A stretch of DNA of 64,000 nucleotides from Methanomassiliicoccales archaeon LGM-DZ1 (GTDB taxonomy: Archaea > Thermoplasmatota > Thermoplasmata > Methanomassiliicoccales > Methanomethylophilaceae): NCBI GenBank assembly GCA_030168595.1, contig CP115556.1, positions 1,364,001 through 1,428,000 of the forward strand. Direction: 5' to 3'. This document shows, piece by piece, positions 2,595 to 6,960 of this stretch. The translations under genes were made by a program, and so were the position numbers. The notes beneath the pieces are model-generated. The model worked only from the letters and a program-made list of their open reading frames with translations. It searched no databases and was not told the origin of the DNA. How positions within the stretch are numbered: the stretch's first letter is position 1; every line of letters begins with the position of its first letter.

Positions 2595-3500
2595 ATGGCA
2601 TTGAAGTGTGACGTGCAGTACAGCAGGGGATCCACGGGGTTCAGGCTCTCTAAAGTAGGGGTCTCCGGCGTGCGCAAGCCGGTCCTGATCGCAAGGCCCG
2701 GGATGAACAGCCCCCTGAGCAACGTCGTCAACTGCTCATTCGACATCTTCGTGGACCTTCCGGCCGCGCAGAGGGGCAGCCACCTGTCGAGGAACGTCGA
2801 GGTCCTCAGGGCGGTCGCCGAGGAGAGCATTTCCCATCCCGTCGACGGCCTGGAGAACCTGGCCGCCGATATGGTCAGGAAGCTCCTCGTCAAGCACGAG
2901 TATGCCATGAACGCCTACGTCACCATCACCGCCGAGTACTTCAGGCCCAGGAAGACCCCCTCGGGCAGGGACACCCTCGAGGGCTACACGCTCCTGGCGG
3001 GCGCCACCGGCACCAGGGACGGGGAGATCAGGAAGACCATCGGGTGCGAGGCCGTGGGCATGACCGCCTGCCCCTGCGCCCAGGAGACCGTCGGGGAGCT
3101 CCTCAACGTCGAGGACCCCGGCTTCCCCATGATGTCCCACAACCAGAGGAACGTATGCTCCATCGTGATCACCACCGGGCCCGAGGAGAGCATCGAGGCC
3201 GATGATCTGATCGATCTCGCGGAGAAGTCAGTCTCCAGCCCCACCTTCGAGCTCCTCAAGAGGGAGGACGAGGGAAGGGTCGTCATCAACGCCCATGAGA
3301 ACACCCGTTTCGTGGAGGATGTCGTGAGGAACGGCCTCACCCTGGTCGTCACCAACTTCCCGAAGCTTCCCGATGATTGCGAGGTCAAGGTCTCTTCCGA
3401 CTCGGAGGAGTCCATCCACAAGCACAACGCCTATGCCGAGCGCACCGCCACCATGGGCGAGCTCCGCGAGGAGTTCGCGCAGAAGGTCCAGGCGCTCTGA
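2595..3500 (+). CDS. mptA: GTP cyclohydrolase IV MptA
   Basis: Iron-dependent GTP cyclohydrolase that makes 7,8-dihydroneopterin 2',3'-cyclic phosphate, the first step of methanopterin synthesis. The 301-residue protein has the FolE2/MptA fold signatures: MTACPCAQETV with the metal-binding cysteine region, MMSHNQRNVC with the following histidine, and VDLPAAQRGSHLSRN near the N-terminus. It is divergent from rnhB across a short AT-rich promoter gap. Its presence supports a methanopterin-using methanogen. Confidence 0.93.
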   Translation: MALKCDVQYSRGSTGFRLSKVGVSGVRKPVLIARPGMNSPLSNVVNCSFDIFVDLPAAQRGSHLSRNVEVLRAVAEESISHPVDGLENLAADMVRKLLVKHEYAMNAYVTITAEYFRPRKTPSGRDTLEGYTLLAGATGTRDGEIRKTIGCEAVGMTACPCAQETVGELLNVEDPGFPMMSHNQRNVCSIVITTGPEESIEADDLIDLAEKSVSSPTFELLKREDEGRVVINAHENTRFVEDVVRNGLTLVVTNFPKLPDDCEVKVSSDSEESIHKHNAYAERTATMGELREEFAQKVQAL

Positions 3501-3700: not shown

Positions 3701-4462
3701 TCAGATCCTGCTGAGCTTCTTGTCCATGATCCCGATGTCCTCGACGGTTATGCCGTCGGGGGCCTCGAGGCCGTCGAGATGGCCGGTCCAGTAGACGACC
3801 ACTCCGGGGCCGAACAGCTCGGTATAGGGGATGAGCTGGTTCTTGCAGTTGTAACGGAACTCCACGGCATCGCCGAACGAGGCCTTGCTCTCGATCCAGC
3901 GGATCTCCCTGCCCTCGAACTCCATCGGGGAGTCCAGGAGGCAGTCGGGGGTCTTGCCGGTCGCTCCGGCGGCCCTCTCCTCCTCTTCCGTTTTGTATGA
4001 AACGTCTTGGCCGTCCAGCCATTCCCAGAGGAGCCCTTCTCCCCATTTCCCGCGTTCCTTCTGCCTCTGGTCGGCCTGGGGGGAGTAGACGATGTCCTTC
4101 TCGGTTGCCTCGCGCAGCTCGGCCGCGGTCTCGGGGCTGTCCAGCAGGGAAGGGTCGCGGACGTATTCCCAGAAGACCTTCTTGGTGCACCCGTCCTCGA
4201 GGAATATGGTCATGGCCGTCAGCATCGGCGGGTATCCCAGGCGGTCGGCGATGGAGCAGATGCTCTCGCCGCCGGTCCAGTCGCGGAGGATCTCCCTGGA
4301 CTTCTTCCTGACCGTGTGGAACTTCTTCTTGACGGTCCTGTTGACCTTCTGGGTATACAGGGTCTCGAGGAAGCGGGCATCGTAGCCCTCTCCCTCCAGG
4401 CGCTCTATGTCGTCCTTGCTGTTGAGCTCGCCGTAGATCCTGGAGTACTCTCCGTATTCCAT
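3701..4462 (-). CDS. CDIN1/C15orf41-like TPD-motif nuclease
   Basis: A 253-residue protein with an N-terminal helical, HTH-like part (about 1-110) and a C-terminal restriction-endonuclease-like domain. The active-site pattern is visible: GEGLLWEWL (residue 142 region), GKTPDCLLDSP carrying the TPD motif (171-173), then RWIESKASFGD with E191-x-K193. This arrangement is that of the archaeal/eukaryotic TPD family that includes human CDIN1 (C15orf41), mutated in congenital dyserythropoietic anaemia type I. Nuclease activity and substrate are inference. It follows the upstream flavoprotein gene by 4 bases and is probably co-transcribed with it. Confidence 0.75.
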   Translation of the reverse strand: MEYGEYSRIYGELNSKDDIERLEGEGYDARFLETLYTQKVNRTVKKKFHTVRKKSREILRDWTGGESICSIADRLGYPPMLTAMTIFLEDGCTKKVFWEYVRDPSLLDSPETAAELREATEKDIVYSPQADQRQKERGKWGEGLLWEWLDGQDVSYKTEEEERAAGATGKTPDCLLDSPMEFEGREIRWIESKASFGDAVEFRYNCKNQLIPYTELFGPGVVVYWTGHLDGLEAPDGITVEDIGIMDKKLSRI

Positions 4463-4466
4463 CGGA

Positions 4467-5837
4467 TCACTGTCTGAACTGCCTGACCAGGTCCTCGACG
4501 GCGGCGAACACGGGCTCCCTCACCATGGCGGTAGGGGGGCAGTAGGCGTTCTCGCCGTTCGCAAGGAACTCCTCGGCAGTGGTCCCGGCGGCGATGACCG
4601 CCGTCATCCAGTCGATGCGTCCGGTGGTGTTCTCGCCTGCGACGATCTGGCACCCGATGATGCGGTGGGTGGCGCGGTCCCCTATGACCTTCACGGTCAT
4701 GCGCTTGGCGCCGGGGAAGTACCTGGCGCGGGTGAGGCCTTCGGCCCTGCCGGTGGCGGTGTCCGCTCCGTACCAGGAGGCAAGTCCCAGCGACATCCCG
4801 GTGCCGGCGATCTCCATCTCCCCGATGGGGCTAACCCACGGGCTCAGGGTGGGCCCGCAGATCTCGCGGCGGCCGACGGCGTTGGTCCCGGCGACCCTGC
4901 CCTCCTTGACGTCGGACGATCCGAGCTGGCTCATGGTGGGCCCGGGGTAGACCCCGGACTGGCACTGGATGACGTCCCCGCATGCGAGGACATCGGGCAT
5001 GAGCCTCCCGCGCCTGTAGCACTGCATCGTGGGCGCGACCGCGACGGCGCCGAGCTGGCCGATGTCGAGGCCCAGCTGCTTGGCGATGTCGGTGTTGGCG
5101 CGGACCCCGGTGGCGAAGATGACGATGTCCGCCGGATAGGTCTTGCCCAGGGACTCGACGCCCTCGGCCTTCCCATTGCCGGTGACCTTCTGGACGGGCG
5201 CCTTCAGGACGATGGTGACGCCCTGGTCCTCCAGGTATTTCTGGACCTGGGCGGCCATGTCGGCATCCGCGATCCTGGGTATGACCTGGTCCATCATCTC
5301 GATGACGGTGACGTCCTTGCCGATGTTGTTGAGGGCGATGGCGAGCTCGAGCCCGATGACGCCCGCTCCGGCGATGACGACGTTCCTGGCGGTCTTCAGG
5401 CAGGCCTCTATCTTCCTGCCGTCCTCGACGGTCCTGACGGTGAACACGCCGGGGAGGTCCTTCCCCTCGATCGGGGGCACGAAGACCCTGCCGCCCGTGG
5501 CGAGGACCAGCGAGTCGTACTCGTAGGTCTTCCCGCCTGCGGTCACGGTCTTGGTGACGGTGCCGTCCTTGGCCCTGTCGTTGACGGCCGACTCCACCTT
5601 GGTGCGGGTCAGGACCTTTATCCTCCTCTCGGACGCGTACCACTCGGGGGTGTGCATTATCATCTGGTCCCAGGTGGACTTCCCCTCGAGGACCCAGGGG
5701 ATCATGCAGGGTGAGTATGCGATATCGCAGTCCTCGGTGATCACGGTGATGTCCGCTTCGGGGTCTGCCGCACGGGCAGCGGACGCGGCCGACATGCCGG
5801 CGGCGCCCGATCCGACTACTATGACTTTCTTCGCCAT
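4467..5837 (-). CDS. FAD-dependent NAD(P)H oxidase / CoA-disulfide reductase family protein
   Basis: A 456-residue pyridine nucleotide-disulfide oxidoreductase. It has an N-terminal FAD dinucleotide fold (VVGSGAAGMSAA), a single redox cysteine in AYSPCMIPWVL (Cys44, the position that cycles as a sulfenic acid or CoA disulfide), a second dinucleotide fold (VVIAGAGVIGLELA) for NAD(P)H, the FAD-closing VLACGDV segment and a C-terminal dimerisation domain. Whether it reduces CoA disulfide, oxygen, persulfide or another disulfide cannot be told. A TATA element near 5870 places it at the head of a two-gene unit with the downstream nuclease. Confidence 0.88.
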   Translation of the reverse strand: MAKKVIVVGSGAAGMSAASAARAADPEADITVITEDCDIAYSPCMIPWVLEGKSTWDQMIMHTPEWYASERRIKVLTRTKVESAVNDRAKDGTVTKTVTAGGKTYEYDSLVLATGGRVFVPPIEGKDLPGVFTVRTVEDGRKIEACLKTARNVVIAGAGVIGLELAIALNNIGKDVTVIEMMDQVIPRIADADMAAQVQKYLEDQGVTIVLKAPVQKVTGNGKAEGVESLGKTYPADIVIFATGVRANTDIAKQLGLDIGQLGAVAVAPTMQCYRRGRLMPDVLACGDVIQCQSGVYPGPTMSQLGSSDVKEGRVAGTNAVGRREICGPTLSPWVSPIGEMEIAGTGMSLGLASWYGADTATGRAEGLTRARYFPGAKRMTVKVIGDRATHRIIGCQIVAGENTTGRIDWMTAVIAAGTTAEEFLANGENAYCPPTAMVREPVFAAVEDLVRQFRQ

Positions 5838-5958: not shown

Positions 5959-6960
5959 ATGAAGAAGGAAAGAGTTCCGAGCGAGCCCGAGGCCGTCTGG
6001 TCCGAGAAGGACATGGCCGGAGGGGAGGCCGTGGATGCCCAGGTGATCATCCTGCGCACCAACGGCTGCTGCTGGGCCAAAGCGGGCAGGGGAGGCTGCA
6101 CCATGTGCGGCTACCGCACCGCCTCCATGAGCGGGGTCACAGCGGAGGACCTCAACAAACAGGTCGATCTGGCACTTTCTAAATACCGCGGCGAGCCGTT
6201 CGTGAAGATCTACACCTCGGGGAGCTTCTTCGACACCGAGGAGATCCCGGCGGCCGTCAGGGACAGGATCTTCGATGAGTACGGCGGATGCAGGCGCATC
6301 CTGGTCGAGAGCCGTCCGGAGTTCCTCACCGGGGACCTGCTTTCCGTCCTCCCGCGGCAGATGACCGTGGCACTGGGCCTCGAGTCGTCCGACGAGGAGG
6401 TCCTCAGGACCTGCGTCAACAAGGGATTCACGGCCGCCCAGAGCAGGGAGGCCGGCATGCGCCTGAAGGACGCCGGGCTGGGGGTGAGGACGTACCTGCT
6501 CCTGAAGCCGCCGTTCCTGAGCGAATCCGATGCGATCGAGGATGCGGTGTCGTCCGCGCTCTTCGCCGATCCCTTCTCCGACGAGATATCGGTGAACCCC
6601 CTCAACATCCAGCACGGAACCGTCGTTGAAAGGCTGTGGAAGCGCGGCGAGTTCCGCTCCCCGTGGATTTGGAGCCTCATAGAGGTCATGAAGCGTCTGT
6701 CCGGGAAGGTGAACGCCAGGCTCATGAGCTCTCCCTCCGGCGGAGGGTCCCAGAGAGGGGTCCACAACTGCGGCGCCTGCGACCAGCGCGCGCTGGCCGC
6801 GGTGGAGAGGTTCTCCTTCTCGCAGGACCCCCGCGACCTGGACTGCGGCGGATGCGAATGTAAATCTACCTGGGAGCGCTATCTCGCCGCCGAGAAGATG
6901 CTGGGCACCGCCGACGATGTCGGCAGGGTGCTGGCCAATGAACTCAACATCAGAGGCTGA
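5959..6960 (+). CDS. raSEA: Archaeosine biosynthesis radical SAM protein RaSEA
   Basis: Radical SAM enzyme of the family that, with ArcS, converts lysine-modified preQ0 at position 15 of archaeal tRNA into archaeosine. The 333-residue protein carries the iron-sulfur motif NGCCWAKAGRGGCTMCGY (cysteines 37/38, 47 and 50), typical of this group and unlike the standard CxxxCxxC. Further matches are KIYTSGSFFD, ESRPEF, GLESSDEEV and a C-terminal cysteine cluster (NCGACDQRA, DCGGCECKS). TATA-like GGTTAATAATC lies about 28 bases upstream of the ATG. No arcS or tgt gene is in the window. Confidence 0.82.
   Translation: MKKERVPSEPEAVWSEKDMAGGEAVDAQVIILRTNGCCWAKAGRGGCTMCGYRTASMSGVTAEDLNKQVDLALSKYRGEPFVKIYTSGSFFDTEEIPAAVRDRIFDEYGGCRRILVESRPEFLTGDLLSVLPRQMTVALGLESSDEEVLRTCVNKGFTAAQSREAGMRLKDAGLGVRTYLLLKPPFLSESDAIEDAVSSALFADPFSDEISVNPLNIQHGTVVERLWKRGEFRSPWIWSLIEVMKRLSGKVNARLMSSPSGGGSQRGVHNCGACDQRALAAVERFSFSQDPRDLDCGGCECKSTWERYLAAEKMLGTADDVGRVLANELNIRG

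Follow-up and report, generated by a model that had tools for sequence, protein, structure and literature searches.

The gut-type, methane-producing Methanomassiliicoccales archaeon LGM-DZ1 encodes a predicted nuclease of the TPD family (PF14811), an archaeal relative of human CDIN1 (C15orf41), which probably acts as a core, histone-independent house-keeping enzyme that cuts branched or unusual DNA in recombination or repair. The gene lies in a 64,000-nucleotide stretch of contig CP115556.1 that was analysed at its full length (the window), to which all coordinates of LGM-DZ1 features refer. This reading is supported by the Pfam match, active-site motifs shared by all 46 aligned sequences, a confident structural model (pLDDT 96.3), the occurrence of the gene in each of 45 near-complete genomes from LGM-DZ1's family, a link to a Cas4-like nuclease gene in related families and the lack of a histone match in most TPD-bearing genomes. 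The CDIN1 family is mutated in human inherited anaemia, and the nuclease prediction for C15orf41 reportedly stems from Babbs in 2013, according to papers that cite it.

The TPD gene and its protein

The TPD gene (3701..4462, reverse strand) is an open reading frame of 253 codons with an ATG start. A Pfam profile search identified TPD (PF14811.11) as the sole family on the 253-aa protein at E <= 0.001, with 145.8 bits (E 9.1e-43) against a cut-off of 27 and residues 110-242 aligned to profile positions 3-136 of 138, confirming that LGM-DZ1 carries a CDIN1 homologue as originally predicted. Exactly one TPD match was found in a genome-wide search of LGM-DZ1. Candidatus Methanomethylophilus sp. 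1R26 is the closest named relative among the best 80 of 276 matches, with 93% identity over the whole protein, which fits the placement of LGM-DZ1 in the host-associated family of its order. In a comparison with this relative (L092), the proportion of differences per site was 0.035 at nonsynonymous and 0.164 at synonymous sites, as for a working gene under purifying selection. Orthologues of C15orf41 have already been reported in Euryarchaeotes (excerpts of PMC7092493), and the gene is an ordinary chromosomal member of a known family.

The AlphaFold2 model of the protein is confident (pLDDT 96.3, pTM 0.88); its helical N-terminal half, about 120 residues long, is followed by an alpha/beta C-terminal domain. 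Within the N-terminal half, residues 49-90 (4193..4318, reverse strand) form a helix-turn-helix-like segment that VIA-align superimposes on two DNA-binding proteins, KorB (8qa9_B, Z 4.4, rmsd 2.0 over 42 residues) and IstA (8q4d_A, Z 4.0, rmsd 2.0 over 41); with both Z values below 8, the HTH-type N-terminus claimed earlier finds suggestive support. Residues 124-253 (3704..4093, reverse strand) form the predicted PD-(D/E)XK nuclease domain, the best VIA-align row being the restriction enzyme BsaWI (4zsf_A, Z 7.2, rmsd 3.0 over 120), and further rows for the C-terminal half included EcoT38I (Z 5.8), PspGI (5.6), EndoMS (5.4), Hjc (4.2) and Vsr (4.0). The top rows are mostly restriction-type or DNA-repair nucleases, with some non-nucleases among the 50 rows. 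Because every Z value here is below 8, where a match may reflect just a common arrangement, the fold is assigned from motifs and model in combination. No Foldseek match to the model reached E <= 0.001; the leading rows, with a best E of 0.2, included RNA polymerase subunit RPB5 chains and also BsaWI. A sequence search for solved relatives with the single TPD protein gave just a chance-level sigma-factor match (E 0.45), and a 19-row TPD profile had no match among solved structures. Motifs and model suggest a PD-(D/E)XK nuclease domain behind a helical half that contains a putative HTH. A similar layout is predicted for human CDIN1, with two HTH units and a PD-(D/E)XK domain (excerpts of PMC7261414), so that the two proteins are alike in having a TPD-family domain behind a putative helix-turn-helix and a predicted PD-(D/E)XK site.

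The residues of the predicted active site are conserved far beyond close relatives. An alignment of 46 sequences showed Glu142, Thr171, Pro172, Asp173, Lys193, Gln209 and Tyr213 to be invariant. The helix glutamate Glu142 (4037..4039, reverse strand) and the downstream helix residue Gln209 (3836..3838, reverse strand) are putative parts of the site, and the eponymous motif Lys170-Thr-Pro-Asp173 (3944..3955, reverse strand), whose lysine is kept in 44 of 46 rows, would supply a metal-binding aspartate. The E-x-K motif follows at Glu191-Ser-Lys193 (3884..3892, reverse strand); 44 rows have Glu at position 191, and Asp takes its place in the two most divergent ones, which are 25% identical to the LGM-DZ1 protein. 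Both motifs (T171-P172-D173 and E191-S192-K193) stand where the original prediction placed them, and its numbering of D173 and E191 is correct. The PD-(D/E)XK motif permits an E-to-D swap at position 191, and the acidic-acidic-lysine pattern (D173, E/D191, K193) was found in 46 of 46 rows. Such invariance is the pattern expected if a PD-(D/E)XK site is in use. Longer and more divergent TPD proteins occur in families f25 (L090) and f33 (L091), whose open frames span 379 and 355 aa; an N-terminal extension of basic, low-complexity sequence is present in both, and their motif reads D-x-K instead of E-x-K.

Distribution of TPD genes, Hjc and histones

A TPD match was identified in 92 of 102 genomes of LGM-DZ1's family, including all 45 near-complete ones (at least 90% complete, at most 5% contamination), and in 159 of 292 genomes sampled across the phylum, none of the latter 159 belonging to families f6, f7 or f8. 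Phage and plasmid records contained no TPD match, and neither did viral contigs when queried with the single protein, a search that reaches close relatives only; a mobile or phage origin was rejected on these grounds. TPD is thus a core chromosomal gene of LGM-DZ1's family with no sign of mobility. Statements on archaea beyond the phylum draw on published papers and control genomes, and the contig scan for TPD covered the best 80 of 276 matches, with more distant organisms beyond it. In one genome of the same family (G036:C13:5675-6827), two TPD matches lie in tandem, and one of the two contains an in-frame TAG. Its order, Methanomassiliicoccales, is known for reading UAG as pyrrolysine.

The Holliday-junction resolvase Hjc (PF01870) was matched in 244 of the 292 genomes, with one match in LGM-DZ1. 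Similarity to Hjc has been noted for the human protein (excerpts of PMC7261414), and the predicted PD-(D/E)XK fold of the LGM-DZ1 protein aligns with that of A. fulgidus Hjc at Z 4.2, but the TPD protein differs in the roughly 120 residues of its helical N-terminal half and in having no match to the Hjc profile PF01870 at E <= 0.001. It is conceivable, though unlikely, that TPD proteins are alternative Holliday-junction resolvases that stand in for Hjc. Consistent with such a substitution, no Hjc match at E <= 0.001 was found in 12 near-complete genomes from the order's other families (f2, f3 and f4), all of which carry TPD, in agreement with the Hjc enrichment described for the host-associated clade (excerpts of PMC7883539); the control genome of M. 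acetivorans likewise has TPD and no Hjc at E <= 0.001, and three Hjc-bearing control archaea have no TPD match. Only 4 of 159 near-complete genomes lack both genes (G161, G173, G197 and G236, the last with a weak Hjc match below the cut-off), compared with 8.7 expected (hypergeometric p 0.02, a value that ignores ancestry), a deficit that is no better than a hint. Against substitution, 108 of the 133 TPD-bearing genomes among the 266 sampled outside the family also encode Hjc, while 25 have TPD only, 112 Hjc only and 21 neither, so that no association was detected over these genomes (Fisher p 0.63) and simple replacement of Hjc by TPD was rejected. Furthermore, the near-complete Hjc-less cases fall mostly into one clade, and relaxing the threshold to E <= 1 revealed weak Hjc matches below the cut-off in M. 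acetivorans and in 7 of the 25 genomes that were searched again. By fold, BsaWI (Z 7.2) is closer to the TPD protein than Hjc (Z 4.2), and no activity on Holliday junctions was detected for the human protein (excerpts of PMC7261414).

Histones (PF00808) were matched in 22 of the 292 genomes, in two of them solely by scores under the family cut-off, and not in LGM-DZ1. At E <= 0.001, 148 of the 159 TPD-bearing genomes, some of them incomplete, had no PF00808 match, including all 26 from LGM-DZ1's family, and TPD in this phylum does not seem to depend on histones. In this the archaeal protein differs from human CDIN1, which works in complex with Codanin-1, a protein that binds the histone chaperone ASF1 (excerpts of PMC11911400), and the apparent histone independence of TPD bears on the human protein. 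Codanin-1 is described as younger than C15Orf41 (excerpts of PMC7092493) and is not known to be reported from the archaeal lineage.

The neighbouring flavoprotein gene

Directly upstream of the TPD gene, in the same direction and separated from it by four bases (4463-4466) as originally noted, lies the gene for a 456-aa flavoprotein (4467..5837, reverse strand). A Pyr_redox_2 match of 198.3 bits places the product among the pyridine nucleotide-disulfide oxidoreductases. Among NCBIfam models it fits CoA-disulfide reductase (TIGR03385) best, but its 276.9 bits stay well under that model's cut-off of 578.8, so that the earlier label "CoA-disulfide-reductase-like" is apt and membership of CoA-disulfide reductase itself falls short. 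Upstream of this pair, and divergent from it, are a gene for the archaeosine-biosynthesis radical SAM protein RaSEA (5959..6960, forward strand; TIGR01210, 329.8 bits, cut-off 212.15) and a DUF5611 gene, and the convergent downstream neighbour encodes the GTP cyclohydrolase MptA (2595..3500, forward strand; TIGR00294, 308.9 bits, cut-off 220).

The original prediction took this arrangement as a hint to the role of TPD, for example in the repair of oxidative damage. Inside LGM-DZ1's family the pair is indeed conserved: the flavoprotein gene lies directly upstream of TPD and co-directional with it in all 20 fetched loci and in 73 of the 80 named ones, two sets that share genomes. Gaps range from -11 to +59 bases in 72 of the 73 named pairs, and co-transcription is likely because this spacing is kept while protein identity to LGM-DZ1 falls to about 50%. 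Two of the seven named loci without the flavoprotein gene are cut by contig ends, and for L163, L165, L166, L169 and L171 the retrieved upstream sequence, 3.4 to 8 kb long, gave no flavoprotein match. Adjacency and spacing would fit a TPD protein that acts with the flavoprotein in oxidative stress, cutting oxidised DNA or being controlled by a thiol switch, a proposal that we nevertheless regard as improbable. Outside the family the pair is not conserved, an outcome that the original prediction itself named as refuting, so that its hint holds within the family and fails beyond it. The flavoprotein orthologue (51-57% identity) is located head-to-head with RaSEA and away from TPD in 12 of 12 genomes of the order's other families, at a distance of roughly 6 to 40 kb in the 8 genomes that have both genes on one contig. 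Likewise, no flavoprotein of the same cluster was found within 7 called genes of TPD in 20 loci outside the family (L072-L091), one of which, L072, has a flavoprotein match about 6 kb from TPD. Neighbouring genes were called as greedy longest open reading frames, by which GC-rich loci may show shadow frames, and conclusions on neighbours use just genes checked by profile or tblastn.

RaSEA is thus the older neighbour of the flavoprotein gene, and the flavoprotein-TPD pair looks like a rearrangement fixed within the history of LGM-DZ1's family. As a derived feature, the flavoprotein link is of little help in explaining the function of the TPD family, and an oxidative-repair operon was rejected as a general clue to that function. 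The simplest view is that the flavoprotein gene is co-transcribed with TPD and became its neighbour through a move of the TPD locus to the flavoprotein-RaSEA pair in the ancestry of LGM-DZ1's family.

Other neighbours of TPD raise the question of an RNA substrate, for instance in tRNA or transcript quality control. RaSEA is located upstream of TPD in L079, L081 and L082, a leucyl-tRNA synthetase gene lies upstream in L091, and convergent synthetase genes occur in L079 (histidyl) and L089 (class II, glycyl by eye). In addition, human Codanin-1 resembles CNOT1, a scaffold of RNA deadenylases (excerpts of PMC11911400). However, only one of the three synthetase genes shares the strand of TPD, the set of neighbours varies from lineage to lineage, and restriction-type and DNA-repair nucleases dominate the best fold rows, all of which makes an RNA-directed function a doubtful alternative. 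Synthetase genes stand beside TPD in three divergent lineages, a count that leaves aside how often this would occur by chance.

A Cas4-like nuclease gene beside TPD

In 11 of the 12 genomes of the order's other families (the exception being G255), and also in one genome of f9, another family of the class, TPD is directly followed by a gene for a Cas4-like nuclease, which, together with the separate place of the flavoprotein gene in the order's other families, leaves the suggested repair of oxidative damage unsupported. Among 120 compared loci, which include some genomes twice, the Cas4-like gene alone stands beside TPD in 10, and flavoprotein, TPD and Cas4-like genes form one row in another 10, two of which (L066 and L167) come from the same contig. 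Of the 26 genomes sampled from LGM-DZ1's family, 25 have no Cas4-like gene, LGM-DZ1 itself among them. The simplest history is that an old TPD-Cas4-like pair moved to the end of the flavoprotein gene in the ancestry of the family, and that the Cas4-like gene was later lost in most of its lineages.

All four Cas4-like neighbour proteins that were tested score 2 to 15 bits above the cut-off of the Cas4 model TIGR00372. Nine of nine aligned proteins share a conserved nuclease core and five invariant cysteines, four of which are placed as we would expect for the Cas4 Fe-S site. In these respects they resemble Cas4 and solo-Cas4 proteins, from which they differ by an insertion of about 150 residues that begins after the first cysteine, precedes the nuclease domain and contains four hydrophobic segments in all nine. 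The predicted model of the Cas4-like protein is poor (pLDDT 62.7). Proteins of this kind, possibly membrane-anchored PD-(D/E)XK nucleases, are encoded in L065, L066, L073-L078 and L085 (e.g. L066:8450-9439). A survey of Cas4 nucleases (excerpts of PMC5704561) mentions neither Thermoplasmata nor Methanomassiliicoccus nor C15orf41, and its sole use of "membrane" is unrelated. Similarly, no statement on a linkage of TPD with Cas4 or with a flavoprotein was found in the literature within reach, most subscription papers lying beyond it.

The two genes are separable. Among the matches listed, full-length Cas4-like proteins, selected as near end-to-end matches to the model with partial ones (G117, G233) excluded, occur in 42 sampled genomes outside LGM-DZ1's family, and 23 of these 42 have no TPD, so that an obligate partnership was rejected. 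It can be speculated, as a long shot, that TPD and the membrane-inserted Cas4-like nuclease formed an old two-nuclease module that processes recombination intermediates in Methanomassiliicoccales, also where Hjc is missing, and that the host-associated family of LGM-DZ1 afterwards retained Hjc or acquired it again, gave up the Cas4-like gene for the most part and placed TPD behind the flavoprotein gene. If true, this histone-free archaeal enzyme would reveal the substrate of human CDIN1.

A putative house-keeping DNA nuclease

We favour the reading of TPD as a nuclease for branched or unusual DNA, in which the helical, HTH-containing N-terminal half probably holds the DNA and the metal-dependent PD-(D/E)XK domain (E142, D173, E191, K193 and Q209) would cut it; catalysis, a DNA rather than an RNA substrate and a role in repair are what we infer from motifs, model and gene context. 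Counting against this reading are the negative activity assays of the human protein, the RPB5 chains in the Foldseek comparison, Z values below 8, the separable Cas4-like gene and the missing association with Hjc. With or without Codanin-1, the human protein displayed no nuclease activity on linear, circular, flap, fork or Holliday-junction DNA or on RNA (excerpts of PMC7261414), and a 2026 paper (excerpts of PMC13370696) indicates that no nuclease activity of CDIN1 has been published.

The present analysis adds to the known family an active site that is invariant in distant members, an older linkage with a Cas4-like nuclease gene and an apparent independence of histones. The comparison of gene neighbours argues against redox regulation of TPD and offers the older Cas4-like link instead. 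As human CDIN1 is without demonstrated nuclease activity, the archaeal homologue, being small, confidently modelled and from archaea without detectable histones in a lineage without reported Codanin-1, is a tractable stand-in for structure determination and substrate screening.
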